Assembly: GCF_000003815.2 (NCBI RefSeq) | Contig: NC_049981.1 | Coordinates: 18,027,041 to 18,091,040, forward strand | DNA length: 64,000 nucleotides | Direction of reading: 5' to 3' | Origin: Branchiostoma floridae | Lineage: Eukaryota; Chordata; Leptocardii; Amphioxiformes; Branchiostomatidae | Shown: in pieces, positions 406 through 46,800 of the stretch | Position numbering within the stretch: the first letter of the stretch is position 1 | Layout of the letters: every line of letters begins with the position of its first letter | Translations under genes and position numbers: made by a program | The notes under the pieces: model-generated | Told to the model about the DNA's origin: nothing | Seen by the model: the letters and a program-made list of their open reading frames with translations, nothing else | The model's database searches: none

Positions 406-3400
406 CTTTTTCCTTGTCAGGGCTCAGAACATCATCCAGAACTCTCTCAGCACCTTGAAGATCACCCGCGTTTGTTAACACCCTGGCTTTACGGATGACA
501 ATCTGTACGTTTCAAGATCACATTGAACAGTTAGCAAAAGAAAAATTCATTTAGTGATGATGACAGCTTTGGATATACAGTTTTTAGAATTTCTTTCATA
601 TGCATGTAACGGGGGCTGCCCTTATAAGATGCTCCCTGCCCTAAGATGCCACGGATTTTTTGCTTATCTTATTATGCATAAGTATGCCATGTTCGTTGCC
701 ACTGACTATGATGATTAGAATGGTAAATAAACCAAGTCCAAACAAACAGCTATTTTTTCTATTAGAAAAATACTTAGTAATATTCACTTCCCCTTTTTTT
801 TGAAGATAGGATTTTCACAATAATGTTGGTAGCGCCGAATCATTGTGGTCACCTGTTACTAGGTATCGGTGGCTCGTGTCCCTAAATATACAACCAGTAC
901 AAAACAGCTACACAACTGTCATACACATAAGAAATAAAGCTTCACAAAACACTACAAATATTGGTATTCAAATGTTTGTTGAGCAGAAGACTGGCCATAG
1001 GAAAAACAACATAAGCATCACCGGTGTTGTTTTCCCGTAACATCTTAGGGTGGCCCCCGTTACCAGCCCTCTAATCTTCTACATGTATATCACCCTCCCT
1101 TAGCATGTCTTTCTGGGAGTGTGAACCCTGAATCTAATCAAGTCTTAAACTTTTAAGTTTGCTAACTGCAGAGTGCAACTAAAAATCAGCAAGTTCTGCA
1201 AAAATTCCTATGCAGAGATGAACCAACGTCCTAGAACTCTGCCTGGTTGTTTCTCAGCTTATTCACAATGCAGGTCCCACTATTGACCTGTCCTGCTTGT
1301 AAATATTAGAAAGCTTAGTACGTTATTTGGCTATTTAGTAGCCAGAGACTGCAAATTTCCAATATAAACTGTTTGTTTTTGTGCTAATAGTTTCTTTGTA
1401 TGTCTGGTTGACATCCAACAGATCTAAAATCTGGTGCCTGATATACAGGACTGTCAAAAGTGCTGTTCTCTTGCTTTTAAATATCAACAACCAGGCCTTA
1501 TTTGGCACAAGTTTTTCCTTTGGACAACTCAAAGGCCTCATAATTCTCTGATTGGATGACAGCTGGTAAGTGGCATCACCCACAATTATGTTGTGGAAAT
1601 AGGAATAGGCAGTTAAGCAGAGTAGCAGTTAAGCAGAGTACAAACCAGGCAGAGTTCTAGGACATGGGTTCATCTCTACGTAGGAGAATGACACTAATAC
1701 ACTGGTTAGGAAATGCTAAAAATTTCTAAATACATATTACAGTATGTAGATTTGTGAGTGTAGTCATTTTACCTGGGGAGGGACGGGTGTGCTTGGACTA
1801 TTTTGACGGATGTCATCAATGGCTTTAAGCAAACGAGGAGATGTACCCTGCCAAAAGGCATACCTGTCCAACAAGAACAGGATAGCAACAGCACGAGGGT
1901 AGCTCTTACACTCCACTGCTAGGTCTGCACACTCCTGTAGAAAAGGATGTGGGATCAACTAAATGGCAACGTGTTGCACATAGATGATGTCGTACCCAAC
2001 CGAGTAAACACGTTTCAATGCAAAATGCAGCAGAGGTTGAGAAAATTTGGTGTCTTTGAATAACAAATTGTAACAACAGACATTCCAATGTCTGACTTGT
2101 ATATTCAAAACTCAGAGCATGCAAAGTGCATTCAAATAATTCTATGGAAGCCTGTCTGATAACAGTAGGACACCATGTGATTACCCATTATCACCCGGTC
2201 TTGAACAGCATTGAACTCGGTAGGTGGCCTAGTGTGAATGCGAGTTTATACTACTGTTATATTATTTTATTATAACAGTAACATTAGTGATTTCTACAAA
2301 GTTGTGTGGCCAAGGGGCTTCAAATCAGAGATGGGTGCTACCAATGTGCCACCATGTTTGGTGTGGTCAAGGACTTAAAAGAATCTTTAACATGAACTAT
2401 CTCTCACCCAGAGTATGTCTGCTTCAGTTTTGCCTGGCCTTTGTGTACTTGGTGCAGTGATGAGATCCTTGACATTGTAAATGTCCTGTTCCCCAACCCT
2501 GTCCTCAAACTGCCATGTCTCTGGGATGAAGGCCCATTTCTGATCCTCAGCATCCCTGAGAAGAGCCTGCAGCTGCACAGATAACAGTCCTATGGAAACA
2601 GAATTAAACATGTGACTGTGCTGTCAATAGTGATATCCCTGTGGCTCAACTGGTAGCAGCTTCAAAGGTAGGCTGAGCCCGGGAGACCCCAGTTCAAATT
2701 TTGGAAAAGGGCATCTCTGTTGGGGCTGCACCAGGTCTTTCAGGTCTTGGGGTCCGCCTTGGATGTTCGCCACAAGCACATTATGGAGAAAGCTTGCGAC
2801 CACTCCCTATGAACAAGGACGTTTATTATATACCCCGCTACCACTAAGCTGACCTCATGTGCCACTTAAGGCACTTCAAGGTGAACAACAACTGCACCGT
2901 CAATCTTAAAATGTTTGTTTGCACTTGTTACATTTTCTCTGTATCGAGTGCTCCAGGTAATAGATAGATCATGGGAGTGGCCTGACTATGTGGATTTGGT
3001 ACTGCTCCGCCCACCCGAGGAGTTTGTTGGGGTGGCGAGGGCGAAGCCGAGGGACCCAACAAACTCCAAGGGTGGCGGAGCAGTACCAAATCCACATAGT
3101 CAGGACACTACCAGGATCTATCTGACTTAGAACATGGCCATCTTTCCGAAGCAAAATACACCTTTTTAGTCATTAGAAACATGCAGTTTGTTTTCCTAGC
3201 AAGCGAACAGACAGGCTATATTATTCTCCTATTTCCCATTCATGACCCTGGTGATGGCGCCTCACACCTTTCCTCATGAGGCTTGTGTGAAATTCATGTC
3301 TGGTTTTACAACACTTTTTTGCACCACAATGCCATTGTTCTGTGGGTGTTTGTCAGATCAATCCCAGTTCCCAACCTGACCTCAAATGAGCAGGACGTGG

Positions 3401-4546
3401 CATGTCTTGGAGGCCCATTTTCTCGAGTATGTTCAGGGAGGCCCATTTTCTCGAGTATGTTCAGCCGTTATCACAGTATGTTCAGGCGAGTTCCGTACAC
3501 AACCCGACATGTCTGAGTTCCAGCTCGAGCTGGTGTAAAACGTTTTGCTGCAGCATGGTGGCATCTCTGCCGAACTGTTCTGTAGTTTTGATCCTGACCA
3601 GTTCTTGCCAGACAGACCGGCCGATGTCGCTCCTGCCTCCTTCCCCCATTTCATTCGCCCTGCTGGAGCAACCGTTCTGACGAGCTGTCCTGTTCCCACT
3701 TTGACCCGTTCCTGGTAGACCACATCATGCATTATCTTCCTGCATTTTTAGTTTGTTTCCCGTTTATGGAAGTATTGATCGTTTTGATCAATTTAACTCG
3801 CATGTTTTTATGTAGCATCTCTACTAGTTTTTCTTTACTATCTTGGAGCCTGTTCCCTAGCTTGATGTAACCAAGGAGGTTATATTTTTCATGTCTTTGA
3901 CAGTTTGATGTAACGCTGTTTGTACATTTTCTTGTTACAAGAAACTCTTTATTATTGTCTTGTTCGTTTTCTGACTTTCTTTCATGATCGCAAGAATTTC
4001 CTTTGTTTATGTTATGAATAAAGATGTTCAGTAACATAGGTTGATTTGCTGTTTCCCTTTTTGTTAATTCTTTAATTGCTTTTATTTGCATGAGAAAGGT
4101 GGGCGTCTCCAACTTAGTCAATTTATTCCTTGGTTGGTACACCCCTACCCCAAGGGAGACCATTCAGTTGAATGGTGGGCGTCTCCAACTTAGTCAATTT
4201 ATTCGTTACTTAGTACACCCCTACCCCTAGGGACACCATACTATCATGTGGATATAGTCACAAGAAATACTCGCTCCTGATTGGCTGAGGAAAGATGGCC
4301 ATGTTCTAATTCTCTTTCCTACAAAATAATGACACAGTAAATATGTGTTTCTGGTGTATTAATTACATACTCGGTATTACAGGAATGTTTCCATCTAGGA
4401 GGCTTTCTTGGGAACTGCTTTGAGTCATCAACGTTACTAACATTAACATTTACTTGAAATGTGTGAAACCAATAGCAGTATGACATACCCAGGTTGTTGG
4501 AAAGTCTCTGCACACTGTCGGCATATGTTTCCTGCTCCATCTCCAT
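406..4546 (-). CDS. ALPK1: ALPK1 (alpha-protein kinase 1), N-terminal four coding exons, partial gene
   Basis: ALPK1 is a cytosolic atypical kinase whose helical N-terminal domain binds bacterial ADP-heptose and then phosphorylates TIFA. Coding exons are 4489-4546, 2408-2589, 1773-1934 and 406-502, with phases 1, 0, 0, 1 and GT-AG junctions. The start is the ATG at 4546, which opens MEMEQETYADSVQRL. The conceptual protein carries WAFIPETWQF (human WPFVPEKWQY), AVAILFLLDRY (human AAIVFLVDRF) and VPPQ joined to IVIRKAR (human IAPQVVIRQAR), all in the human order and spacing. About 166 residues lie in the window. The linker, the rest of the N-terminal domain and the C-terminal kinase are off the left edge; I found no further exon in 1-405. 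The N-terminus is about 20 residues shorter than in human. The gene is divergent from the TIFA-like gene at 5223. Identity is secure; the first exon is the least certain part. Confidence 0.9.
503..1772. other. ALPK1 intron without recognised genes
   Basis: Intron between the third and fourth ALPK1 exons. It is AT-rich, and short open frames here have no family signature. A short direct duplication (a motif reading cagagttctaggac, with a reverse-strand counterpart) occurs near 1200-1250 and 1640-1670 around a sequence ending in catctctac or its complement. Confidence 0.4.
1960..2215. repeat. Dispersed repeat, family A, copy 1
   Basis: Shares ordered blocks with copies at about 7750-8070, 12970-13235 and 28735-29035: a cgtttcaatgcaaaatgcag-like block, tgtaacaacagacattcc, and aaagtgcattcaaat followed by ttctatggaag. 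It sits in the ALPK1 intron next to the exon at 1773-1934. Confidence 0.6.
2636..2830 (+). repeat. tRNA-derived SINE
   Basis: An A-box-like gtggctcaactggtagcagc (2641-2660) and a B-box-like segment agttcaaattttgg (from about 2691) have tRNA spacing. The sequence does not fold as an intact tRNA and runs on into a non-tRNA body (caggtctttcaggtcttggg, then cttgcgaccactccctatga). This pattern is typical of a pol III-derived SINE. It lies in the first long ALPK1 intron. Confidence 0.65.
2958..3124. repeat. Long inverted repeat (foldback or MITE-like)
   Basis: The left arm 2981-3016 and right arm 3070-3104 are complementary with one single-base indel (cctgactatgtggatttggt against its complement). 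Imperfect pairing extends inward through gagtttgttgg / ccaacaaactc and outward to gatagatc / gatctatc. The GC-rich loop is about 20 bases. Confidence 0.8.
3126..4306. mobile_element. Candidate 1.18-kb element with short terminal inverted repeats
   Basis: The sequence ttagaacatggccatctttc at 3126-3145 reappears inverted at about 4287-4306. Inside are two local tandem duplications: aggcccattttctcgagtat twice at 3410-3463, and a roughly 75-bp unit containing gggcgtctccaacttagtca twice at about 4100-4240. The longest internal frame (3732-4163, minus, 143 codons) matches no transposase that I recognise, so the element would be non-autonomous. No clear target-site duplication is visible. Confidence 0.5.
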
Positions 4547-4630
4547 ACGATGCCCTGAGCTTTGAAGGATAATATTTATGAGGTTCCTGGTTGCATACTG
4601 TGTCCAAAAACTGAAAGCTGGTTTTCAGAA

Positions 4631-4638
4631 TGACGTCA
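4631..4638. promoter_or_regulatory. Consensus CRE (CREB/ATF site)
   Basis: TGACGTCA, the full palindromic cAMP-response element, lies about 85 bp upstream of the ALPK1 start codon. Confidence 0.5.
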
Positions 4639-4790
4639 CTTTTGGTTTCGTTCCCGCTTGAATGATTCACACAAGACGACCCCACGCGCTAAGAAAACAG
4701 GGACACGCCACTCGTTCAAATCAAATCGTTACCACACAGCTATAAATATAGACACGCATAACTCATTTCCTCCCTCATTGTCTCCTTCTC

Positions 4791-4800
4791 GGAAATCCCC
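4791..4800 (-). promoter_or_regulatory. Candidate NF-kappaB site 1
   Basis: GGAAATCCCC on the plus strand reads GGGGATTTCC on the minus strand. This fits GGGRNNYYCC exactly. It lies about 250 bp upstream of the ALPK1 start. Confidence 0.55.
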
Positions 4801-4880
4801 AACCTTTACCCTTTCACCCGGATTTCCATATATGGTATGATGATATCATCGCCAGCCAATCGCTGACCAGCAAAGTTGTT

Positions 4881-4892
4881 GGGGACTTCCCC
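4881..4892 (+). promoter_or_regulatory. Candidate NF-kappaB site 2
   Basis: GGGGACTTCCCC contains GGGACTTCCC, a full match to GGGRNNYYCC on either strand. It lies about 80 bp from the first site and 330 bp upstream of the TIFA-like start codon. Confidence 0.6.
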
Positions 4893-5222
4893 TGTACGTC
4901 ACCACTTAGGACACAAGGGGAATTTTCAGAACAAGCGGTGCAGACGAGCTGAGCACAGGGGAACTGACGGGTGTACATGTTAACAGGTAAATCATTGCCT
5001 TACAGTCTAATCCTAGCACTGCGAGGAAAAGTCGGCGTTTACTCCAAGATTCCATGATAGCGGAACGAAGCTGGGGAGGGGGGAGGGGGGCGCCAGTTGG
5101 CGCGTTTGTCAGTGGAAAAAAAATATGGACGGGACACAACAAAAAATAATTGTAACGTGTTAACTATTACCGTATGTTTACCTGTGTATGATGGTGCTGC
5201 CCATGTTATTACCAGGTGCACG

Positions 5223-8200
5223 ATGTCTTCATCTACAAACCAGCAGGACGTACCTGGAACTGTAGATACTGACAGAGACACTATGGACGGGGAAGGTGAG
5301 ACTCAGACAAACCATGATGTCCGCACGCACTTTGACCTGTTACGAATCTTTAAACGTTATAACGTTATGGCAAGAAATTGGACATAGTAGACCATAGCAC
5401 ATTTTAGAACCTTACAGAAACAGTCGAGGAAAATAAACATTTTAAAAGTGTTCTATAATTTTATATCAACACTGAACAGCTCCTGGTTTAGATATACCAA
5501 ACTCCCCAGGGAGATATGAGATAAATGTACAATTAATGAATTATGACCATGATCATGAGCCCTCAACATCATTATCTGGTAGTTCTGTAGGGTTTTCTGT
5601 AAGGTTTTAAAATTCATAAACTTAATGTTCTACAGTGTCCAATATCTTGCCACTAGTCTACTGTTTGACCTTTGCCAATATACTATGTGAGGTATTTTAT
5701 TGTAGCTGGTTCAGTCTAATTCAGTGATGTGGGTAAATTATTTGTGATGCATAATTGGTCCCTTACACTTAAAGTCTACAATTCTACATAGCACGTTATA
5801 TGTAATATCCAGAAGTCAACATTCAGCGTTCAGATTATTCGTATCATGAAGCTGAACACCAGCAAAAAAGTCTAACGTTAGTTACATGTATGTCTGTGTT
5901 CACAGGCAATTATGTTTTGACACACACCCAAAGACTACAAAATAATGAACAAATTGATGAAATCATTCGCAGTAAGATGAAGAGATTGCTGCAGATTACT
6001 GTAAATGCATTTAAGTTCACGGGGATTTAATTTCGCGGTAGCGGGAAAAAGGACTATTTGCGGTAACACCATAGACTGCAGTCTAATACCATAAAGTGGC
6101 AGTGACAGGCCTTTGTGGTGGTGACAGGCCATAGGGGCATGTTCGGGCATGACGCACCCGCCATGACACACGAGTCAGGGGTAGGAGGAACCCCTTGCAT
6201 CCTTGGTCGGAAGTCCTCCTAGGAGACGGAAACTCCGAACAACAAACCTGCATCTGCTGGGGCCGCCTTACACGTTGCATACAGTTGCCCCTGTAAGACT
6301 AGTGCGCCAGTGGACGAGAGGGTGGATAAGGACGTGCACACCCCTCCTTCACCTTAAAAATCCAAGTGCAGGCCAGGCAGACGGGTCGCCTTAAAACCCG
6401 TCTGCCTACCATTGTCTTCCGAGACAGACGGATGCCAACAATACCATAAAACAAAAATATTCGCGGTAGTTTTAAGTTCGCGGTGAAGTGGTCACCGCTA
6501 AAACCGCGAACATTAATCCACCGCGAACATTTCTGCATTTACAGTAACTTCATTTTAAAAGATTTCTGAAGATTGGGATGTTAGTGTGAGACTATCATAA
6601 ACAGGGCTGTATCCATGTCCTGTCCTTTCAGTCCTAAGATTGAAGATTGCTTGTTTTGATGGATGGAAGTTTCATGAGGTTGTTTGTGTGAACAAAACTG
6701 TCACCCACTCTGATATTACAGTTTATGTCATACCTGTGACGCGAAAACATTCGATACAGGAGTTCCGGACTGGGTGATTATAGTATGGTTTATTTCTTCT
6801 TCATCACTTTACACGGTACAGAATGGCAGGGCCATGGCCCTGAATTGCACTGTCGTGTTACATTTATTAAAATCGAAGACAGTTATTAAAAACGATGTTC
6901 GTACATCAGCGAATATTGCACATAGTATTTACATATATTGCACACAGTTGCTTAACAGTGACAAATTTGGCTAGAAATACAACAAATTTGACTTCGAAGG
7001 TGATGGGTAGTTAGTCAAAGTTCTCTTATAAAACAGATTGTCACATCTAGAGCGCAGATTCAGGTATTTACATGTTCAGCTTGCGCACCATGTAGGGTAT
7101 AGCACTCGATCTGTATCTTTCCGTTCTACAATGAACAGTGTCCAGTTTGTGTGATGAACGAGTCATCCTGCCACTGATATCCACACGTGAGAGTGGAAGT
7201 AGGTGCCTGTACAGCTTCGACTGTTCAAGTGATTTGGCGAAGTTAACAGTTAATTGTTCACGACGTGACTTGAGTGTAGGTAGGCCCAGCCGAATACATG
7301 CTTTGGAGTAGGATGTGTAGTTGGTGCCCAAGATGATTCGAAGTGCTCGGCGTTGGACGTTCTCGATTTTGTTGCTGAGAGTTGTGGATAGTCCGGAGTG
7401 CCAAACGGGCGACGCATACTCCAGAGTCGGGCGGATATAACAGGTGTAAACCGTAACTAGATCATCAGCAGGAACGCGGAAGTGCTTCAGTTTGATGAGT
7501 AAGTACAGACGTTGGCATGACTTCGTGCACATGGAGTCAACGTGCGTATTCCATTTCAAGTCTTCTTGGAGGTGAAGACCCAAAATCTTTATGACTTTCA
7601 CATGTTGAAGTTCAATGTTACTTATCATGAGTGGTGGTGGCACGAACGATGTCTTACTAAACTGGATGTGAAGGACGTTGCATTTGCGAGGGTGTAACAC
7701 CATGTCGCTTTCACGGGACCAGATTACTTCCGTATCAGACTGACTCTAAGTTGTATCACACGGGCTCCATTCGCATAAATCGAACTGTTTCGAGCGGGCC
7801 GAGTGCGGCGCCATCGAAAGTTCAAATACCTGATTCGAACGTTAATTGGAACATTGCTGTTGCAACACTTTTTGTTCGAGGGCACAAAATTTATTCAACT
7901 TCTGGCACATTTCGCATCAAAACGGGTTTTCTCATAAATAAAATACAACACGGTGTATTCCACATCACCATCGGTCCCAGCTCCTTCGGCCGTCGGGCGA
8001 TCCGACCCGCGATCATGCTGGTACCTCGGGCTGGTACCTCGGGTGATACACCGTGTTGTATTCTATATTAATGTAAAATTCATCATGTTGAAAAATGACA
8101 TAATGCGATTATGGCTGTACTAGATTATGGCTTCCCATAGCATATATTACATACATTCAAAACCATTGTTTTGTGGTTTTCACAATGTCATTATGAGATT

Positions 8201-10493
8201 CTCAATCTAAAAAGCATTTCTTTTGTTTTAGGAGAAGTAGCCTTTGCCTGTGGTACAGTCAACTCAGAAGCTGAGACAGTGGACATTGAAGCCAAGCCAG
8301 GTGAGCCAGGCAGTATTTTGAGGCAGCAGCAGCACTACCCCCTGACACCCCCTTCTTGAAAGTAGAGTGGTTATTCCATGGACAGCTGGCCTGGTCAGCC
8401 GTTAACGCGTTCTTGAGGGAAGATGCTTATAGGGAAGGGGAGCATCTACTAACATCTGAATGGCTATGGCTATAGCATTGAGGCATTAACATACCAAGAC
8501 TCTACATAGTTTACAAAGGTCATATGAGATCTTTAATTCCTTGTCACCTCCATGTTTTACAGAGCATGTGTGTTTGTTTAATTACTGTAGGTAACGTTAT
8601 ACATTTTGTATCTTCAGAACGTTACGTGTGATTGCAAATTGAATTTGGTACATGTGTTTGTGTTGAGGTTTGCTTTTGGGCATCCTGGTGTTTGACCTTG
8701 ATACTGCAGCTGGGCTTCCTGTTTTGACCCTATGGTCCTGATGTTTCGATAATGCACAGATTTTCGTATATTGTGGAAGTGGTGTAAGTTTAGGCCACCT
8801 AGCACCATGCACTGGAACTGCAGGAGCAGTTTGGTGGAATCTTCTCACAACATGTGCAGTACTTATTGCTTGTGTTGCTTCACAGTTGCTTATGGGTTGT
8901 GTTTCCATTCACCAATGAGGGTGTGACTGTGTTCATGGAAATTTGTGGTCAGCAACACTTAATTCATGAATTGTATTTTGCACAGATAACACAGTAGATG
9001 CTCCCACACACCTCCTCTTCCATATTACTTCTGAGTCCTCTGACACCAAGAGAATTCTTAAGTTTCTACCGAGAGGAAGCATCAAGAAGAACAGCCGGGA
9101 ACATATCAGTATTGGTCGACGTGAGACGAGTGACTTGAGGCTTCATCACGCTCAGGCGTCCAGGGACCTGATGCGCATTACACCCACAGTAAATTCCTCC
9201 AACTTATCTTTCACAATAACGAACGTAGGGAGCAAAGGGTTTTCTGTCAACAACATGGTACTGTGTAAGGGAGCTGAAACACCTTTAACTTCTGGTTCAG
9301 TTATCGCACTAGATTTTCTCAACTTACAAATGACAGCAGATATCAAACCAGGAGATGATGAGAAGATGTATGAGGTCCAGTTCCATCATGTAAATCAAGT
9401 TGCACAGGCTGCCACAAATGACCATGACAGACTAACTAGTAGCAGGAAACAGCAGCCCTCTTCAAATTGTACAGACCTAAATGTCCCTGTTTGTAAGGAA
9501 GTGTGCACATCAAGTGATTTCACTGACCAAAATGAACACCTGTGTGGTAAGCATGTTCAGCCCCCACCTCCACAGCAGCCACCTGTAGAATGTCCACATG
9601 GTCAGTGTACATCACAGTCAAAGCCAGTGGAGAAGCAGGCATCAGCAGAACCTACAGTACAAGAGCTGCTAACACAGTTATCTTCTGGCAATGGGTCTGC
9701 CCCCCAGGTTGTTTTTCTGGCACGTGACATTGTTGTGAACATGGGAGGTCAGGGGTTAGACACACGGCCACAGGGCCCTAAAAACACAACAGACACTACT
9801 AGAAATGGGGAAGTGACTGCCATGCAGGAGAGTGGGCAGGGGGGCTCTGAAGAGGGGTGTCCCATCCAGGTAACAGAAGACGGGGAGTCAAGTAACCTGC
9901 CAGTCATGTGCACTGATACACAGAATGAGGAGTGTAGTAAGAGCCCCATGACTGATATCCAGGGAAGTGGAGGATTACAGCCAACAAGTCCAGTAGAGAG
10001 TGATGATAGGGATTCACGACATGCCGATGACGAAAGGCAAGGAGTTAATCCTGGAGGTACTGTAGCAGAAACAGTGGACACTCCAACACGACTGACCCTT
10101 TTGGTTCACAATCCTTATCCAGGGTTGAAATTACACTATCCCAGCACCACTATCACAAAAACTGCCAAACAGCCTTTTCTCATAGCTGCAGCTAGAAACG
10201 AGAAGGCAGATATTCAAATAGACGACCAACGCGTCTCTCGTGACCACATGCAGATTGAATTCCTCACTACCAAGGCAGGACACTTCGGATTTCAACTGAG
10301 GAAAGTGAAGAAGAATAAGATTGTTAATGTTGATGGACAGAGTGTTGATGCTGAGGTGCCAGTCCAGCTGAAGTCTGGTAACAGCATTTGTCTTAAGTTA
10401 CCCGGATCCCCAGTAGTCAATGTGGAGTTCAGCGTTAAGGTTGAAACTGGGGATGCTCCTGATGTTTATGAAGTTATGGTGAAGAAAAAGTGA
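5223..10493 (+). CDS. TIFA: TIFA-like adaptor with two FHA domains (549 residues, three exons)
   Basis: Exons are 5223-5295, 8232-8300 and 8986-10493, joined in phase 1 at both junctions, with a TGA stop at 10491. TIFA is the ALPK1 substrate: its FHA domain binds a phosphothreonine on another TIFA molecule, and the oligomer recruits TRAF6 to activate NF-kappaB. FHA1 spans about residues 57-165 (GRR at 91, SRD at 106). FHA2 spans about 416-535 (ARNEKADIQI, then S465-R466-D-H, then NVDGQ). The linker is a 250-residue Cys/Pro/Ser/Gln-rich, probably disordered region with PVESDD at 383-388, which fits the TRAF6 consensus PxExx(D/E). Acidic Thr sites before FHA1 (T13, T16, T20, T40, T50) could serve as the phosphothreonine. 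Human TIFA is 184 residues with one FHA domain, so this is a duplicated-domain form. The assignment rests on FHA style, the TRAF6 motif and the adjacent ALPK1. The first exon is less certain than the third. Confidence 0.8.
5996..6547. mobile_element. 552-bp MITE-like element with terminal inverted repeats
   Basis: TTACTGTAAATGCA (5996-6009) is repeated inverted at 6534-6547. The subterminal DNA is rich in gttcgcgg and its complement. An inner perfect hairpin (aggcagacgggt at 6375-6386, complement at 6396-6407) lies within it. No transposase is present. It lies in the first intron of the TIFA-like gene. Confidence 0.65.
7068..7703 (-). mobile_element. Non-LTR retrotransposon fragment (C-terminal reverse transcriptase region)
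   Basis: An open frame of 211 codons, truncated at its 5' end. It shows the signature downstream of the RT palm: KILGLHLQEDLKWNTHVD, then YTCYIRPTLEYASPVW, then IENVQRRALRIILG. These are typical of Jockey/CR1-type LINEs. The catalytic YADD region is missing, so it is not active. The element probably extends from about 6760 (3' untranslated part) to about 7745. It is inserted antisense in the first intron of the TIFA-like gene. Confidence 0.85.
7750..8070. repeat. Dispersed repeat, family A, copy 2, with terminal inverted repeat
   Basis: Contains the shared blocks ctggcacatttcgcatcaaaa and aatacaacacggtgtat. The latter is repeated inverted (atacaccgtgttgtatt) at about 8046-8062, so the GC-rich 3' part (7940-8065) is a foldback. 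Confidence 0.6.
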
Positions 10494-34800: not shown

Positions 34801-37800
34801 ATTCAACTCTACCACATAGAACTGTCCTCCTGCTCTGTCTTGCCTTTAGTACTGCAGTCAATCCTTTCACCCAAGATAGGAGACAGACACAGTTAAACAC
34901 AGATCTACAGGAATCTCTTGATAACCTTGAAAAAGCACGATGGATGTATCTATAGCACTGTGTGCCAGTATTTTCTTTGAGGTTTTCTCTTGTAGATTTT
35001 TTGAGACTAGCAAAAAGATTTTGAAAACCCAACCCCTGAAATGGCATTTCCTGCATTTTTGAGAGGATTGCAAACTAGGAAATGTAGATTGATGGTAACA
35101 GCACTGTAAAGGTGGAATGCATTGATTATTCCTTTTGAGTACCTCAGAGAGTGTAGGGGTTCTTCTGAACCACCACCCTCAGGCCTTCGGGCATGTAACC
35201 AATATTGTTATTATACCAAAAGATAGCCTACCAGTGCTGTACTTCTGTTTGGAAAATCTGGGTGCATTGTCATTGGTGTCCTTTAGATGGATAGCAACTT
35301 CCAAGACTGAGGGATCATCATGTGAAGATCTCTTCCCTCTTGTGGTAAGTACGGTATAGAACTCGGGGTCACTCGAAGTCTTGATGGTCAGTGTGAAGTC
35401 ACTCTGGTCCTCAAAGTCAAGGTCAGATGAGCGAGTAGACAGAACTCCTGTTGTTTTGCTGATGGCAAATTTGTTACTTGCTCCCCCTATCGGTTGAAGA
35501 GGAAAGTGCAAGTCTTGAATGATTTTGGAACTACATGTAGGCACTGACCTGAGACAGATGCAAACAAGCTGCCACATTTCAAACATGACCAGTTCATAAC
35601 ATAACAAACATAACAAATGTCTTTACTTCATTCCCAGTGATAACAAAACTAATTTAACTTGAAAGTTCATATGCTGTCTTGGTAAAAGTAATTCTGGATC
35701 AAAGGAGGCGCAATAGACTTTTGCAACTTTTGATCCAAGACTCACTGAGTCACGCATGCTGTCTACATAACACAACATCACAGAAGCAGTACGGCGGATT
35801 GCTCATCCCTTGACAAAGCTGGAGTTCTTCAGCCAATTAGGCTAATTCAAAATAAGTTTCTGTGTTAGATGTTACTCTATTAACTCTGATCCAGGACAAA
35901 GCAATGCTGACCCACCTATGATGTAGTAGTAAGGAACTGCATTAGCTCCCAGGTCATCATCAACAGCAGGTGGCACAGCCCCGATCTCTGTTCCCACGGC
36001 CAAGTTCTCTCTGATATCAAACTCTACCGCCACATCTGTTGCACTGTGCTGCAATACCAGATGTCAGGCTTAACTTTCTCTTAAGACTTAAAAACCCTAA
36101 TCAGAACATTCCAAGTATATGTTGTTGTCCTGAGAAAGCACTTCCTTCAAGAAAATGTTAGAAAATTATGCTTTTCAGGCCTAAAAAATTTACATTATAC
36201 AACAGATTCTACCCCAAATAAAGGGACAACAGACTGTACATGTACTGACAGCTCCATCAGACAGCAACAAGAAACCACTTTGATGATTGAGTGATGGATT
36301 ATGTGTTGCATACTACTTTTCTTAGCAGAGTTATAGACCTTTGACCAGAGGGTGTCTGCATACCTACAAACTTGTACATGTGTAAGAAACTCTGGTCTGA
36401 GACTGGTACTCTAAACTGTTATCATAAAATAGGGGAAATATTTATCTTGTCCAAAGTATGCAAATCTTATACATACACAATGATCACACGTTTTTATAGC
36501 AGGTAAAGAGCCGTTAAGATGCTTACCCAGATCTCTGGGAAGTAAGGTTCACTGTCGTCCACATCTGTAACCCGGATAGTGATGAACCGGTAAGAGGAGA
36601 AGGACGTTGGACTGCCTCTGTCTTCAACCACCAACAACAGCTGGGACACAGAAGAACTGTTTGAACATCTATGTCACCAACAGCTGGATGCTCATGCTTT
36701 CAAGCTACAGAAGCTTGCATGTAAGACCAACTAATACAGGCTCTTCTTCTTCCCTAAAATATGTACCATTAAAGAGTGGAACGAACTTGAGCCTAGTGTG
36801 GCGGAGTCCCATTCCCAGTTCAAAGCTGAGCTTGGACATGTTTGCAGCACTGAGCTGCTCCCCTGTCTTTTGTATATATCAAATAATATGTAATCACTAA
36901 CATCAGTGATTCACTTAATTTCACATGTCTTGTTCTTTGCACACACCAACATCTATCCCCATCGTCCGGCCCTTTGTTTGCACTTACTAACATTGTGTAG
37001 CTGCCAATTTTCATTACAATCTGAAACGAGATATCAGAACCGGAGCTTCATTGCAGTACTATAGAAAGCTGCTATGGGGCCCAAAATTTGATTATGTCTC
37101 CTGTTGCCAACCCTACCAACATGTATCATCAAAATGCGTCCATGACTTCTTGAGTTATGTTGTCCTCAGACAAACACACACATAAAAAAAAACATACATT
37201 TGTACCCTTCTCGGCAAATCAACGGTATCATACATTTTGTACCAATGAATTCAATAGGTAGAATATCACTCACATTGTAGTATTCTTGCACCTCTCTGTC
37301 CAGGCGTCGTGCTGTAGTAAGGTCCCCGTTGTCTTCGTTGATGGTGAACATGAGTGAGTCATTGATGTGTCCCACATTGTCCGTAATCCTGTAAGAGATC
37401 CTCCCACCATCTGACGGGTCAGTGTCCACCGCAGAGACTTTCAGGATGAAATAGCCAACGTATTGATTCTGGAAAGACGTCATAACAGTAATAACAGAGC
37501 ACCATCCTTGACAGAGAGAGCAATTGGTTTGAACGAGGGTCAAAGAGGGATACACATCAGATCCCACTCCCTATCCTTGAGCCACGATCAAGGCCACCAT
37601 GGTCTCCTCCCATCTATGACACAATCATGTCAGGTGTCCTTGTGACCTCTCTCAGATCACATGTCAACTCCTCTCTGAGCTGAAGGAAGATGGTGGATGC
37701 CATAGGAAAGACCCACCCCCCTGTTTGTGTTGGAAATTACAGTTCAACTTTGGTCCATACACAGCTTGTACTTTCTGTACAAAACTGATGTGCTATGCTT

Positions 37801-40800
37801 AATGACAGTTTACTGGTTATATGAAAGAAACAAATAAATGGACAAACTATTCAACCATCTCACCTCAGGTACGGTAACAGTTGTCCCAATCTCAGGCACA
37901 ATAAAAGATGGGGCATGATCATTCACATCCAGCACCACAACTCTCACGGTGCAGGACCCTCGCAGTGCCCCTGGCCCCCGGTCTGTGGCACTGATGGTCA
38001 ACACATACTCTCCTGATAGTTCTATCAGCAGTCCTGCATTTCTAATCTCTCCAGTTGTACCATTGATCTCAAAAAGACCTTAGGGAATGAAAATAAAAAG
38101 GACTTATGAATGAAGACTAAACTTTATGTGACCAGCACTGAGAAGAATTGGAACTTATCCAAATTTTCACAGAATGGACCAGTACTTCCTGGACAGGGTG
38201 TTAGAGCCATGTGATTAATATCTGGCACTTAAGACCCATTGCTGCAGTCAAGTGGCTCTAAGTAGCAGCAGACAGGTCCATTCCACAAAGTCTATGAAGT
38301 CCCACTTCTTTGTTTTAAGTCTTGGTCACACAAAGTTGAATCAGACATCCAGGTATTCTTAGGTCATGGTTTTGGTTACAGACCTGCTAATTTCATATTC
38401 TGAATTAGTCACTGACAAGAGACAGCCATTTTCAAGTTACTTGACTTTGAGTTACTGAGCTTTGCATATTTTACAGTTTACAGCTATTTTTCCATGATGA
38501 TGGTGGTACTAACCAGCTCCATTCCCTGCCAGGATGGAGTAGTTGATCTCCCCACTTGGCCCTTCATCAGGGTCGTGTGCCTGGACTGTTATGACATGAG
38601 AATACAGCAGCACGTGTTCCTGTATGTCAGCATGGTACACAGCATGCGGGAAGGTTGGGGGAACATCATTCACATCCAGTACTGTCACCTCCACCTGAGG
38701 AAATGGGAACAAAACATTTCACAATAGATCCACTGTTTTTTTCTTTACAAAACATCAAATATATAATGGACAAGACAAAGTGGTGGCAGAATTGAGTTAT
38801 TTTAACCAACCAGATCTCGTTTCACCATCTGAATGCTCAGAGCTGGACATCATTATCAGAGTCCAAACTTATCAGCTCCATATAAATCAAATTTAAGCTT
38901 CATTTATTTCTAAGACAACTTAACACTAGAAATATTATACTCAATCAGCACATTGAAGCTTTTATAGGATGTTTCTGTCCCTGTCCCTTCCCTGTGCAAA
39001 AATAATACCCAAATTTCATATTTCAATCCAAACCTAACTTCCATGCTTCATTTTGTGGTACTTTTGACCATCTTTTTTCTTCTAAGATCAGCACAAGTTT
39101 GTATTTCCTCTCTCAGATCCCTTTCCAGGAGCTTCGCTGATAGCTTGGAAGTCTACTTATCTCAAGTTTGCTTCTCCAGAGGCCTCTCCAGAGGCTTCTA
39201 TCCAATCTCAATCTACAATCATTAAATACTATTTTTAAAATCCAAGACCCAATTAGTTCGATTGATGTTACCATTAGACTGTTCTATCTGCACTCACCAC
39301 AGATACAGCTGATCTGGGGACCCCAACACTGGGTTTGTCTGTCGCCATCACTTCAAACAAGTACAGAGACTGGTTCTCTCTGTCCACTGTCTGCTCCAGT
39401 ATGATACAACCCTGTTGGAACATATGGGGAAAATGTCGAAAATATAGAATACAGCACAATGTATTACATATTACCCAAGGGACCAGCCTGACCACAGGTC
39501 AGATCACCTAAGGGCTAAGTTGTACTGTATTTATATCATACATGCCAGAGAAAATGCAAATGTCCATGGCAAATGAGCCAGACACTGTGAAATTTTGACT
39601 CTTTTTAAGAAAGTCTGTGTGATAACCCAAAATATCACCCAGTCAGGAATACCAGATGCTATCATGGCCCAAGTATGACAAAAAAAAGGATTTGTGTTAA
39701 TTCAGACCTCTGTGAAATACATTTTGTATTTTGATTTTGTGCAGATGTGTTGTGTGGATGCTAAATATCATCACAATTCTTTCATATCTATTATAGGTTA
39801 TGGTAACAAATTATAGTTACAATCTGACCCGGGGGATGTACACTTACCAATGTAGAATGAACTGAAAACATGCCCCCTCCCCCTGTTACGTTGTAGAATA
39901 TGTTGCCATTCAGTCTGGAATCAGCATCCGATGCCGAAACATTGAGGATGACATCACCAACACGAGCGTCTTCTGGGATAGATACTGCAGCACACAAGAC
40001 AAGATATATAATGATAACTGTTACTTGTTGTTTTGTATAAATTTGAGTACAGATTCTGAAGCAAATGTTGTCTCACAGGGGTGGGACACCAGGTCCCAAG
40101 TGCGAGAAAGTTTTGACCTTTCTTGTTGAGGGGGACTGTACTTTTGCACAAAGATTGCTTCTCTAACTTGCCATTCAAATCAGCAGGTTTTGCAGTCTAA
40201 AATATTTGTGGATTTGAAAGACCAACTTTTAATAGAGCTGTATGCCCACCTCTGTAGAAATCCTCCTGGAAGACAGGGCTGTTGTCATTTATATCCACAA
40301 TCTGGATACTGACAGGAGTTGAGGCTGACAATGGAGGGTTCCCATCATCTGTAGCCTGGACAGTGAAGTTAACCCACCTCACACCCATCTCATAGTCCAC
40401 TGGTCTGGCCACAGTTACTACACCTGGGGAGGGAACATGACAAAAAGTCTCAAGACAAACAAGTGTATACTGGACACAATCCTGGTGAGGTAATTAGTAT
40501 GTGCTTGCAGTGTGGGTTAAGATCTTTATTATACCCTCTTTTCCAGGAATTAAAATTTCTTTAAAACCTTTTTTTGCTGATGATATGCCTTCCTCTACCA
40601 ATGAAGGCATGTCAGCACCATGCACTTACAAAAAAAGTATTTCAGCACCATGTACTTGCAAAAAAGGCATCTTAGCTCCATGTAGTTGCAAAACAGGCAT
40701 TTCAGCACCATGTACTTGCAGAAAAGGCATCTCAGCACCATGTACTTGCAGAAAAGGCATCTCAGCACCATGTACTTGCAGCAGAAAAGGCATCTCAGCA

Positions 40801-43800
40801 CCATGTACATGCAAAGGAAGGCTTTTCAGCACCATGCACTTGCTAAACAAAGGCATTTCACCACCATGCACTTGCAAATAAGGCAATTGAGCTCCATGCA
40901 TTTGCAACGAAGGCATTTCAGCACGATGTACTCGAAAAAAGGCATTTCAGCACCATGTACTTGCTAAGGAAGGCATTTCAGCACCATGCACTTGCAATAA
41001 AGGCAATTTCAGCACCATGCACTTGCTAAGCATGGCATTTCAGCACCATGCACTTGCAATGAAGGCATTTCAGCACCATGCACTTGCAATGAAGGCATTT
41101 CAGCACCATGCACTTGCACATTTGTAACATGACTGTACAATGTTCTAGAGCTACAATCCACCTAACCATCCATAGCTACAGTTATAGTACTGTGTAGCCT
41201 CAGCAACAGCGGAAGAATTTTCTTTTCAGCCCAATATTTGAACTCTAATTGTAAATCTAAGATTTTCCTTTGCATGTCACATGTACACGTCACTCACCTG
41301 TTACATTGTCTATGGCAAAGTAGCCTTCATTGTGCCAGACTAACTGGTAGTTGATGATAGTCCAAGGTGAGTCGGGATCTTCTGCACTGATGGTGAGAAC
41401 AGAGATGCCATGGCTTGTCTCCTCCAACATGGACAGGTGGTAGTAAGGAGTGTCGGGGGTATGGGGGGACATGAACACTGGGGGGTTGTCATTCCTATCC
41501 TCAATGAAAATGGCAACCAGAGCTGTAGTTTGGATAAATTTGAAGTCAGAGGCAGTGGATGTCACTTTTAAGATAGAAGAAACATGTCCAGATTTTGCAT
41601 GCTGTACAAAATGACTAATAGAATTTTCCTTATTTTCAAAGGTGTGGCTTTTAGGTTTTTTTTCTTCATTATTCACTTTGGCAGACACGACAGACGTAGT
41701 GGTGGTGCACTCAAGTAATCTTATTCATGCCACCACTATACATATATATACAAAAAGTTTAGGAGTTAACCCTGACTAATACATCTTCCACATATGGAGA
41801 GGCCTTTGCATTAAGTGTTGGTTTAAGAGATAATTGTTGTGTCATGATAACATCTTGAAATATGTACACTGACTTTGACAGAATGGAAATTGAGAGTAAT
41901 TGCATTTTGCAGTTTGGGCACCAAAGTTCTACCTATAAAACAGGATAAGCACTAAAGGCAAGCTATTACTAACAGATCTCAGAGATTTTAAAGAAAGAAC
42001 AAGTACTGTGTCGCATGCTTACCTGTTGCAGTTTGTCCTGAGGTTTCGGCCTCAGCATCAACAGCTAGAACAGTGAGCTCAAACATGGCCGCTGTTTCCC
42101 TGTCCAGCTCCCTCCCCACTGTCACCACACCAGTGGTAGAGTCCACTTCAAACCAATCCTAACAACCACAAAACATTCAGCACCACATAGAAAACTGACA
42201 TCAATTCACAATTTTGTACAAACCTTTTAATCCAAGATTCCCTTTGAGTCACTGAAAAAAGACAGCAGATGCCGTCTGGAACGTCTGACCATTTACAATT
42301 TCTATCCAGTTCTGGCCTGCTAGTTTCAAGACACATTAGAAATTTAGCTCTTAACCCTTTTCTCTACTTGTTTCTTTCTTCACCTTTAAATGGTGGTTAC
42401 ATGGACAGTAAACAAGCTTAACAATTTCTATCATTCATTGTTAAAATGGGTTTGTTGTGATGACAATGAGTAGGTGCAACCAACCTCAAACGTCTGGTTT
42501 GTACCAGTGAAGACAGAGTTGTTGAGAATGGCTCCATTCCAGGCCCTGACAAAGTACGGCCTGATAGGCAGGAACTGGACATCAGACGTGTTGTCTGCAT
42601 CACTGGCGTTCAACTGCGCCACCTGCCAGCCCACCATGGTGTCCTCCAGTACTGCAGCACTGGAGCAGAAAATAATGAGATAATGATGAAGGGGCCATTT
42701 AGAGATTGATCTATCGTATGGATTTAATATCGTAAGCATATGTTGGTAACTGGGAGACCCTGGTTCAAATCCCAGATGTCTTCACCCTGCAGACATCTTT
42801 ATTAGGGTTGCAACCATCTTTCAGATGAGACGTAAGATGGGGATCCCATGTTTGAGGATGTGCAACCCCGGCCCTCCTTATAAAAAGATACCCTGCTACA
42901 CAAACAGCAAGGAAACATGCTGTCCTATTTTCCACTAGGCACAACAAGGTCATGAATGATTAATTGGAAGCAAGATGCTTGCTTAGGAGTAGCAGCTGCA
43001 TACTATACAATTGGGCCCCAAATTGGAGTTGTGCATCTTATTTCTTGATGAGGTGCAGGATGCATTGATAACCTCTCACGTATCAATGAAATTTTTTTCC
43101 ACTACTTCTACCAGATATATAACCTATAACTTCTATACAGTACCTGATGAAAGGTTGAAAGAATGTTGGTGCCTTATTGTTGCCCTCTAGGACCCTGATG
43201 ACCAGGTTGACCGTACCAGACCTTGCTGGTGCACCAAAGTCTGTGGCAATCACGAGCAGGCGGTATTCATCCACTAAGTCCTGGTCAAACTGGCTGCCTG
43301 TCAGGAACAATAGTCAGTACAAGTTAGAATACAAAACTGAGGATATTTTATTTCATTATATATACCGGACATTTGCTGTATCCAAAATGTGCTTCTATCC
43401 AAGATGAGGCACATCCTGGATATTCAGAACACTTAGCAAGCAAAGCACCATGCATCCAGGATGTGCTTTCATCGGGATGCATTCTGGATAAGCAACGTGG
43501 CTAGTACATGTAGCCTCAGATGTACTAGCCACAAGAAGCAGGACCATTTTAACCTGTACTGACAGGTCGTATTTCTTAATAGCCAGTGTCTGGGGAGAGT
43601 GTATAATATTAATAGGTGTGGCTATCAGGCTAAATGTGTACATGAATGTGTACATGAATGCTAACACCAATTATACAACAATAGCCTACCAGCAGCCACT
43701 GTGACCAGTCCTGTCCTGGGTTCGATGGAAAACAGCTGGCTGTGTTCCCCAACCAGGGAGTAAACCAGCGCCTGGTTGGGCCCAGAGTCAGCATCTGTGG

Positions 43801-46800
43801 CACGCACCTGGACAATGGTCGCACCTACATGGGTTCAAACAGCAACGTGTCATTCTGAAGGCTTACTGTTCAAAGATCTGGACAAGCACAGCTAACGTTA
43901 GGCCATCTTATTTAATGACAATTTTATCTCTAATGTATAAAAAATCAAAGATTTACTTCCGGACGTTACGAGTGACACCCATCACTGTTCTTTAGCATGA
44001 CTAGAATGAACTGGAAGAACAATTCCATACAAGCACATCTAACTAGAAAAGCTTGATGACTATGTCAAACGTATCAACTCATAAGGATCATATGCAAATG
44101 TCACTCAGGCAGATGTTGTCTGAAATGTCTCACCATTTCCAAATTTTAACTTGTTTCTCGAGGAACTGTTACTTTGTGTGTATATCTAGATTGTTAAGTA
44201 CAGTTTCATAACAGAGAGCAACATTCTGACTAAAAGAGTACCAGCAGAAGCAGACAAGTCTACAACTGAAGGTTGAACAAATGAACCCAAATTCTCACCT
44301 GCTTCAACCACTTCTGCAATCTCTACTCTGTACTCATCTTCCTCAAACACAGGTGTATTGTCATTCATGTCCTGCACCAGAAATAATGAGCATAGATACT
44401 GATGACAACATTTAATGTGACCCCTTGTTTCCTTAGCTGTATTATAAATTGATGTCTACTAAACGACTTTCAAAGTCATGAAGCAGACTTTGGATTTCAT
44501 GAAAATTTCAGATTTTGAAGCTGTTTTCATGTAACATTCTTTTACATAATGCTAGGTCACTTTTATTTGTGGGGGTAACCAAGGCCAAGTTTTACGGACT
44601 ACATTACAGTTGTAAACAAACTGTGTGTATTCCTTCCACTAAGATGGTCTTTGTACGCAGCATCCCTCACTACACTGCCCCTATGGACTAAAAATGGCCA
44701 CAGGGCTACCTTTATCTTTCCTTTTTAAGTAACATAGTTAGGCTCCAATAGTCGAGATTCCTAAAGCATACCATGATGAACACAGTGACATTAGCCATGG
44801 CACTGAGTGCTGGTGTGCCGCTATCCTTTGCAGTCACCTCAAGATGAATCTCTGGCTTCCCATTGGTGAATATAACATCTTCATAGTCAACAGCCTGAAT
44901 GATTGACAGGAGTCCTGATGTCTGTCCAATGCCGAAGTGGCTGGCAAAGTTGGTGGTGTTGGACAGAGTGTAACTCTCTATTCTGTTGTTCAGTTCTGAG
45001 CCATCATAGTCGGTGGCCTAGACAAACACCAAAAAGGTACATGGTTTGTTTTATATGAAGTTTTTGAACAAAATGACAAATATGTGGGAAAATTGCAAAC
45101 TGAAAAAAAGCTACATGTAACGTTATAAGATTTTAATCAGAGAAAATGAACAATGACTTAAGCATTGACACTCAATTCCACCACTTATTGAAAGAGTACC
45201 ACATTTCAGAAGATGGTGAATTCAAAGCAATCTAATAACAGTTATATGCAAATGCTGCATCAGTATGCACACTTAAGATATCAATATCTTCAAGTTAGAC
45301 ATTCTTGAGATGGCCTCAATGGCGCTGCTTTTTAAATCATAGATGTCTTAGGTACGAGGTATTGTTATGAGAGTTCATGTTACCTACATAATAATTGGAT
45401 TAGTTTTTACCATATATTCATTGCCTGTGTGCATGTTCATGTATATATTATGATGTCATAGACCATTGTTTAATTTTGATGCCATACAAGTTTCAAGTAG
45501 GCTGTGACAGAGCAAACCAGCAAGGCTCTAAGACAGCCTCTTCCATAACAAGACAGGGCACATACATGGCTCTCCCAAGAATGCCTTCAGTTTGCAATTG
45601 TATGACAATTGCAGGACATAACAGGCCATAGATTTCAAATGAAAATGAAAATTGGATATAAAAGAGGTTTGTATTAGTACTCACATGGACAAACATCCAT
45701 TGAGGCATGTCTAGACTGTTTTCTTCTATATACACCTGATATTCGTCAATCAGAAAAATTGGCTGGACATCGTTATAGTCCAGGACTGTGATCTCCACTG
45801 GGACAGTGGTGATCAGGCCGGGTCCATCTTCGGCTTGTGCAATCAGGTAATATTTGGGATTATCCTCGTAATCCAGGGATCCAGCCAGCGTGATAATCCC
45901 AGAGATGGGGTCAATGGCAAATCTGCAAAATCAAAGGAAGATATACTAGATAAATAAATGTTAATGCCATTTTTATACAAAAGTTCTCTTATATTATTTT
46001 ATAATACCTAAGCCACACCAGTTTCAAGTTTGCCTAATGTCATCTTTGAAGGTATTTTAAACACCTTCAAAGATGACAGCAAAGTGTCAACTATGAAATT
46101 ATAGATACAAAAGATATGAAATAAAGCATTGTATTAAAGAATAAACTGCTTAATTATTGTACTTTTAAGAAAATCCATTGTGTTAAACAATAGGGAGTTA
46201 CCAACCTGTCTGATCCAGCTCCATGCAGAGAATACTGGATTGTCCTATATTCAAGCACTGTGTCATAGTCCATTGCCTGGAAATAGATATTACCCCAAAA
46301 TAGGTTTTAGATCTCAGTACATTGGCCAAACAAGAAATCAATGATCTCATACCTCCTGAAATACCTAGATTTTGTGAATTTCCTAATGCCATAGCTCTAG
46401 CTGTCAGGTGATCCTCCCCTTCCCTTCTTCCTTTCTCCCTACAATAAGGGGTCATTGGCCGTCACCATTCTATGGCAGTTGACTGACCAGCTGTCCATGG
46501 ATGACACCACCCTCTTTCAGGGTGGGGGTGTCAGGTTATAATGCTGCAGTACCTGTAAATACTGCTAGGGGGGCTCAAAATCTCTTCAGGACTTCCATTA
46601 AGTACCTACATACCAAAACTCATACAAACCCATCAAAATGACCATGAGTTATGGGTGAAACACACAGAACACAGTCAAAAACAGCACCCCTGTGAGGTGT
46701 GAACCCTCCTGACCAATTTCATAACCTGACCAACTTTCTTTTCCAACTCGTGCATCACCTTTGGGGTTCCCAGAGGATATCATTGATATGTGATAAAGTC

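Follow-up and report, generated by a model that had tools for sequence, protein, structure and literature searches.

A lancelet ALPK1 gene lies head to head with a probable TIFA-type gene encoding two FHA domains

RESULTS

Two genes at the left end of the window

We analyzed a 64,000-nucleotide stretch of the Branchiostoma floridae genome (C3:18027041-18091040, contig NC_049981.1; here called the window), at the left end of which a minus-strand gene for the alpha-kinase ALPK1 and a plus-strand gene for a protein with tandem FHA domains lie head to head. The start codons of the two genes are separated by 676 bp (4547-5222; unless a contig is named, positions are those of the window). A first-pass annotation, made from the letters of the window, had placed N-terminal ALPK1 exons on the minus strand and, 676 bp away on the plus strand, a gene for an FHA protein of the TIFA type. 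Both genes were borne out by gene models, which added two features absent from the annotation, namely, a second FHA domain and repeats in the kinase linker. Genome searches covered 513 Mb in 431 contigs.

The left gene is an ALPK1 ortholog

The complete ALPK1 model has 10 coding exons, with every border GT-AG and one stop-free frame of 853 amino acids, and overruns the left edge of the window by 4.1 kb, to window position -4097 (C3:18022943). Exon 1 (4489-4546, with the ATG at 4546) is placed by splice borders and frame and lies outside the region aligned to ALPK1 in the Protein Data Bank (PDB). Exons 2 to 4 are given by the gene model and the PDB match together: exon 2 (2408-2589) contains the start of the N-terminal domain and the equivalents of human F61 and Q67, exon 3 (1773-1934) the equivalent of R116, and exon 4 (406-502) those of R150 and R153. 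Position 406, where the first-pass annotation had ended, is the inner end of exon 4. Only the first 14 nt of exon 5 (1-14) fall within the window; exons 5 to 10, also on the minus strand, run on to position -4097 and encode the rest of the N-terminal domain, a linker with TVD repeats (exon 8), and the alpha-kinase (exons 9 and 10). The leftward extension that had been proposed as a check on the annotation thus found a C-terminal alpha-kinase domain.

The N-terminal, ADP-heptose-binding domain matched PDB 5z2c (amino acids 20-369; E = 1e-58; 127/334 residues identical, 38%), and the C-terminal kinase matched the ALPK1 chain 9j4p (amino acids 617-849; E = 6.4e-58; 199.8 to 199.9 bits; 108/232 identical, 47%). 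Because each half matches ALPK1 at about 1e-58, this identity is not a product of chance. We take the PDB ALPK1 chains 5z2c, 8zd3, and 9j4p to be human or vertebrate. Other kinases ranked lower, namely, eEF2K (2.4e-20), myosin heavy-chain kinase A (6.2e-19), the putative kinase 4kuj (4.5e-9), and TRPM7 (1ia9; 8.8e-6). A family search of the genome placed the alpha-kinase match at C3:18022982-18023503 on the minus strand (E = 4.1e-37), 3.5 to 4.1 kb to the left of the window, and the ALPK1 N-terminal domain was found once in the genome. Two other alpha-kinase genes in the genome are nearer to eEF2K (299 versus 119 for ALPK1 on C13 and 164 versus 67 at 26.9 Mb on C3). While eEF2K and the other alpha-kinases have the fold in common with the lancelet protein, eEF2K scores 75.6 bits, well below the ∼200 of ALPK1, and C13 carries a separate lancelet gene for it. 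Judged by its predicted protein, the left gene is an ALPK1 ortholog.

The gene at 26.9 Mb (C3:26907779-26909644, two loci in our searches, L003 and L006) brings the lancelet alpha-kinase genes to three and shares its contig with ALPK1; its last exon was nearly even between the two families (77 for eEF2K and 68 for ALPK1).

We compared 12 positions of ALPK1. Eight were identical (F61, Q67, R116, R150, R153, D231, K233, and F295), and four differed (F117Y, T237S, Y254F, and S277E). We take F61, Q67, R116, R150, D231, and F295 to be ligand contacts. In human ALPK1, mutation of R153 or K233 blocks the response to ADP-heptose (PMC10723048; this and the other papers cited here are represented by the available portions of their text). 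Lancelet ALPK1 resembles the vertebrate protein in these eight putative pocket residues, as well as in its order of N-terminal ADP-heptose-binding domain, long linker, and C-terminal alpha-kinase and, if the tandem-FHA gene is TIFA, in the adjacency of its gene to TIFA. It differs in the four substitutions, in being shorter (853 amino acids, where the human protein is 139 kDa; PMC10113258), and in its linker of ∼200 amino acids, described below.

An inverted-repeat stretch in ALPK1 intron 1 (about 2990-3100), recognized by eye, resembles a small mobile element.

The tandem-FHA gene is a likely relative of TIFA and TIFAB

The plus-strand gene has three coding exons, encodes 549 amino acids, and was found once in the genome. 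Both of its FHA domains (PF00498; E = 1.5e-14 over 2 stretches) lie in a single 1.5-kb exon, exon 3 (8986-10493), which is given by the family match and the gene model and includes the stop codon. Exon 1 (5223-5295; a TVD tripeptide at amino acid 13) is predicted from a splice donor and frame only, and exon 2 (8232-8300; TVD at amino acid 40) from splice borders and frame only. In exon 3, a TVD at T50 (8991-8999), which we noted by tripeptide count, stands within TVDAPTHL directly ahead of the first FHA domain (FHA1; Pfam core, 9105-9311), and a TVD at T410 (10071-10079) stands within TVDTPTRL directly ahead of the second (FHA2; Pfam core, 10194-10394). The linker between the domains contains SPVESDDRDS (amino acids 382-391; 9987-10016), a TRAF6-type motif resembling the C terminus of TIFA. 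The FHA1 and FHA2 units are alike from the TVD tail onward (z = 15.3), and therefore tail and FHA domain were probably duplicated as a single unit.

Like vertebrate TIFA (PDB 4ym4 and 6l9u) and TIFAB (8wwy), this protein has an FHA domain and is encoded next to ALPK1, and it has a putative Thr9-like tail ahead of an FHA domain and a candidate TRAF6-type acidic motif after one. The lancelet protein, however, is 549 amino acids long, with a TVD tail ahead of each of its two FHA domains, and its TRAF6-type motif is in the interdomain linker, whereas that of TIFA is at the C terminus. A TIFA identity, as the first-pass annotation had it, is likely, but the protein is not a plain TIFA, which has one FHA domain in 184 amino acids in the human. 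We therefore label it TIFA-like, a variant.

At least 18 FHA stretches occur in the genome, two of them within the tandem-FHA gene. We scored a combined profile of TIFA and TIFAB on 456 sequences, comprising both domains and the translations of at least 40 amino acids, in all frames, of the 16 other FHA loci. FHA1 ranked first of the 18 stretches at 20.4 bits, followed by L019 (16.4) and FHA2 (12.9), and its match spanned profile positions 28 to 141, through the strand beyond the FHA core. In pairwise comparisons, FHA1 reached z = 7.5 against TIFAB (0/1000 shuffles as high) and 3.7 against human TIFA (4/1000), and FHA2 reached 4.3 (7/1000) and 2.4 (32/1000); among eight control FHA stretches, the best against TIFAB was L013, at z = 4.6. 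Profile-profile comparison of the lancelet FHA domains with TIFA/TIFAB gave P = 2.4e-4 and a probability of 43%, with FHA1 at 1.5e-4 (109 columns) and FHA2 at 7.8e-4 (66 columns) when taken singly. In trees with 6 or 7 further FHA domains, taken from four of the 16 lancelet loci outside this gene and from the PDB pieces of KAPP, CHFR, and GarA, the lancelet domains and TIFA/TIFAB fell together on one side of a branch, apart from the others, in four of six builds (85/88, 81/84, 88/94, and 88/88).

Aligned without gaps to residues 7 to 23 of human TIFA, the FHA2 tail was identical at 7 of 17 positions (1/2000 shuffles; one of two tails tested), with T410 on Thr9. The lancelet SPVESDDRDS is near the TIFA C-terminal SPSEMDENE (6l9u) around E178, and the narrower TRAF6-type pattern P.E.D[DE].[DE], chosen post hoc, was matched in 45/20000 shuffles. 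We take the human C terminus to read SPTEMDENES. E178 of human TIFA is a TRAF6-binding residue (PMC10113258).

A number of results weigh against a TIFA identity. PDB searches returned no TIFA: the whole open reading frame had no match, FHA1 matched CHFR only (E = 0.83 and 0.9), FHA2 had no match, and the two-domain profile had KAPP (0.0055) as its best. The genome search with mouse TIFAB found nothing, and that with human TIFA missed the tandem-FHA gene, its sole match being a chance-like stretch elsewhere. Against human TIFA, L019, the best of the eight controls, reached z = 6.4, higher than the 3.7 of FHA1. The profile-profile result is not specific, as two controls did equally well (L019, 1.2e-4 over 35 columns; L013, 7e-4 over 74 columns), although the remaining nine controls were at P = 0.12 or worse. 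Many of the 16 controls cover no more than an exon fragment, and their lowered scores favor FHA1 in the profile ranking. The phylogenetic check is weak in that two of the six tree builds did not resolve the grouping with TIFA/TIFAB. A five-way MAFFT alignment puts Thr9 three columns off T410, and the FHA1 tail was not significantly similar to that of human TIFA (481/2000 shuffles). The count of the generic TRAF6 motif was not significant (344/5000 shuffles), and the two matches to the TRAF2 pattern [PSAT]x[QE]E were at chance level (1752/5000), the vertebrate P159xxE162 not having been looked for. Exons 1 and 2 have splice signals as their sole basis. AlphaFold2 models were of low confidence, with a predicted local distance difference test (pLDDT) of 33 for FHA2 alone and 42 for FHA2 with FHA1 as the alignment; a Foldseek search with the latter model, the result of which we did not use, gave nothing at E <= 0.001, and the best 50 of its 265 matches included no FHA protein. 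Weighing both sides, we consider it likely, from the predicted protein, that the tandem-FHA protein is a co-ortholog of TIFA and TIFAB in a two-FHA form.

The control stretch L019 (C2:24453275-24453418), which we take to be NIPP1/PPP1R8-like, reads FGRNSKMCDF where TIFA has FGRNSNICHY, and searches for TIFA could be led astray by this short resemblance. A stretch at C2:22276096, matched by the human TIFA query (E = 0.79), was rejected as a second TIFA, as it belonged to no Pfam family and scored 9.1 bits under the TIFA profile.

A TVD motif is common to both proteins

No other tripeptide is as frequent as TVD in either protein (9 copies in the kinase and 4 in the adaptor), and no other has at least 3 copies in each. 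This common count was reached in 0/2000 shuffles of both proteins and in 0/2000 shuffles of the adaptor alone. For background, we counted TVD in the open frames of at least 100 amino acids beyond window position 11000, many of which are not genes, and found a single copy in 5,049 amino acids. In the adaptor, T13 and T40 are in the N-terminal tail, and T50 and T410 head the two copies of TVDxPTxL directly ahead of the FHA domains; at least one such copy was found in 5/20000 shuffles. Exon 3 alone has two TVDs (141/5000 shuffles), the other two being in the splice-predicted exons 1 and 2, and this also counts against the reading of the pair as sensor and adaptor.

Of the nine TVDs of the kinase, eight lie in the linker, where four decamer repeats starting with TVDP account for six. 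At the DNA level, the repeats are one unit in 4 copies of 33 nt, and one of the four copies is without its second half. Across six nonindependent pairs of 10 codons, the proportion of differing synonymous sites (pS) was 0.77 and that of nonsynonymous sites (pN) 0.12, so that the amino acids are largely kept. The human ALPK1 linker presumably has at least one STVDEEG-like stretch.

The intergenic region holds two NF-kappaB-type sites

The 676 bp between the start codons form a putative shared divergent promoter. Two of the 8 matches to GGGRNWYYCC on both strands of the 64-kb window lie inside it, GGGGATTTCC at 4791-4800 on the minus strand and GGGACTTCCC at 4882-4891 on the plus strand (P of about 0.002 compared with the rest of the window). 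As controls, first-order Markov sequences gave 84/3000, and 73,382 bases of other loci had 11 matches. The region also contains a palindromic cAMP response element, TGACGTCA (4631-4638), that occurs nowhere else in the window, as well as a CCAAT box (4856-4860, plus strand), which is one of 70 on the plus strand of the window. Its CpG observed/expected ratio is 0.84, compared with a window mean of 0.36; this does not make it a distinct CpG island, because the ratio is as high in 6.6% of 676-bp segments and rises to 0.89 in intron 1 of the FHA gene (5300-8200). As read from the sequence, a candidate intron in the 5' untranslated region of the FHA gene has its donor near 4987 and its acceptor just before 5223. 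If this intron is real, the two transcription starts are closer still.

Other features of the window and genome

A Pfam scan of 10 open frames in the window gave four with cadherin repeats, one weak match, and five with nothing. The four cadherin frames (PF00028, two above the curated cutoff) lie at 35179-45930 on the minus strand, downstream of the gene pair, and are probably exons of one large cadherin gene. The weak match, to ALKBH8_N and below the curated cutoff, came from a 225-amino-acid open frame that lies within the first intron of the TIFA-like gene, on the minus strand (7068-7745); from this match and its appearance, the frame resembles the end of a retroelement reverse transcriptase. 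An Rfam search of the window gave no match.

The genome search for the TRAF6 family PF18048 found nothing, but its controls were also unmatched and it is therefore uninformative on the presence of TRAF6. A genome search with amphioxus GFPa1, the query for which was checked against PDB 4dkn, gave 73 exon matches of up to 97% identity, mostly on C17 and C4, with clusters at C17:14828601-14925231 and C4:24569428-24647496; these matches mark the genome as that of a lancelet. The Pfam GFP search missed these GFP genes, so a family search that finds nothing in this genome does not show the family to be absent.

DISCUSSION

The first-pass annotation had taken human ALPK1 and TIFA to be divergent neighbors. 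Their divergent orientation is a presumption that we share. The neighbor relation agrees with PMC5336308, in which alpk1 and tifa are direct neighbors on human chromosome 4 and coelacanth, Xenopus, chicken, and mouse have retained the neighborhood. In the human cycle, Thr9 of TIFA is phosphorylated by ALPK1, and the FHA domains of adjacent TIFA dimers bind phospho-Thr9, leading to polymerization; ALPK1 also autophosphorylates in an ADP-heptose-dependent manner, at sites that are given as unknown (PMC10113258).

We interpret the locus, with a probability of roughly 0.8, as an innate sensor-adaptor module, that of ALPK1 and TIFA in its lancelet form, on the basis of the predicted proteins and their genes. 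ADP-heptose, or another nucleotide heptose, would bind the N-terminal domain of ALPK1 and turn on the kinase, which may then phosphorylate TVD threonines, both those of the adaptor (T410, T50, T13, and T40) and the eight in its own linker. FHA domains of neighboring molecules would bind these phosphothreonines, such that the adaptor, and perhaps the kinase, polymerizes. SPVESDDRDS in the linker between the FHA domains could recruit TRAF6 and lead to NF-kappaB, and the two kappaB-type sites in the putative shared promoter might let this output reinduce both genes together. The predicted anatomy of the lancelet proteins fits the vertebrate cycle of phospho-Thr9 and FHA domain, with two units of phospho-tail and FHA domain per adaptor.

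The FHA neighbor could instead be an unrelated, lineage-specific FHA protein that came to lie beside ALPK1 by chance, with the vertebrate linkage having arisen separately. The absence of TIFA from all PDB search results, the presence of two FHA domains rather than one, the equal performance of L019 and L013 in the profile comparison, and the long branches and instability of the FHA trees are what such a protein would lead one to see. Nevertheless, FHA1 is at the top of the 18 FHA stretches under the TIFA/TIFAB profile, a Thr9-like tail precedes FHA2, TVD is common to kinase and FHA protein to an extent found in none of 2,000 shuffles, and ALPK1 and TIFA are neighbors in vertebrates too (PMC5336308). 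If the genome has some 20,000 to 30,000 genes, then with only 18 FHA stretches, itself a lower bound, an FHA gene would by a rough estimate occupy a given neighboring slot by chance well under 1% of the time, and we regard a chance neighbor as quite improbable. A different doubt concerns the ligand. Even in a homologous module, lancelet ALPK1 may not sense ADP-heptose, its ligand being instead a different nucleotide sugar or an endogenous metabolite. Lancelet ALPK1 has serine at human T237, phenylalanine at Y254, and glutamate at S277, changes at human positions 237, 254, and 277 cause ROSAH syndrome (PMC11614533), and disease-causing ALPK1 mutants are activated by human nucleotide sugars (PMC10723048). 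On the other hand, the eight putative pocket residues, including the R153 and K233 needed for the ADP-heptose response, are identical; a change of ligand seems unlikely to us, if less so than a chance neighbor.

The TVD array admits two readings. In the vertebrate scheme, phospho-Thr9 on one TIFA dimer is the ligand for the FHA domains of its neighbors; a lancelet scheme might add the kinase linker as a further ligand, as if the sensor linker displayed the phospho-motif of the adaptor for FHA docking. Autophosphorylation of ALPK1 upon heptose sensing would then turn a selected TVD array into a multivalent FHA-docking scaffold, and the kinase and an adaptor with two units of phospho-tail plus FHA domain would copolymerize into one signaling body. 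We put this forward tentatively, as a proposal with clearly less than an even chance of being right. The repeats could also be a neutral tandem duplication, or the site of another kinase, and have nothing to do with the FHA protein. They are DNA-level copies of one unit, linker repeats can be of low complexity, exon 3, when taken alone, gives the FHA protein a modest TVD excess, and one repeat copy is reduced to its first half. In contrast, the copies differ at most synonymous sites with the amino acids mostly kept, TVD stands immediately before both FHA domains in TVDxPTxL, and it is rare in other open frames. Repeats unrelated to the FHA protein are a serious contender, not far short of an even chance.

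The ALPK1-TIFA-like pair bears on the age of this pathway. In the available text of PMC11573728, ALPK1 homologs are confined to vertebrates, which is read as a vertebrate invention, and in that of PMC12457700, TIFA and ALPK1 are both described as not found in invertebrate lineages. A complete lancelet ALPK1 gene that keeps the compared pocket residues and stands beside a likely adaptor would place the origin in the chordate ancestor or earlier, contrary to both. The basis for a module kept since that ancestor, as the first-pass annotation had proposed, is one lancelet and the vertebrates; it suggests that the ALPK1-TIFA alarm is older than the vertebrates and that the gene pair has possibly been held together since the chordate ancestor. 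The tandem-FHA adaptor and the TVD array further offer a testable idea of how sensor and adaptor recognize each other, and the docking-array proposal, if true, would give a role to the autophosphorylation of ALPK1.

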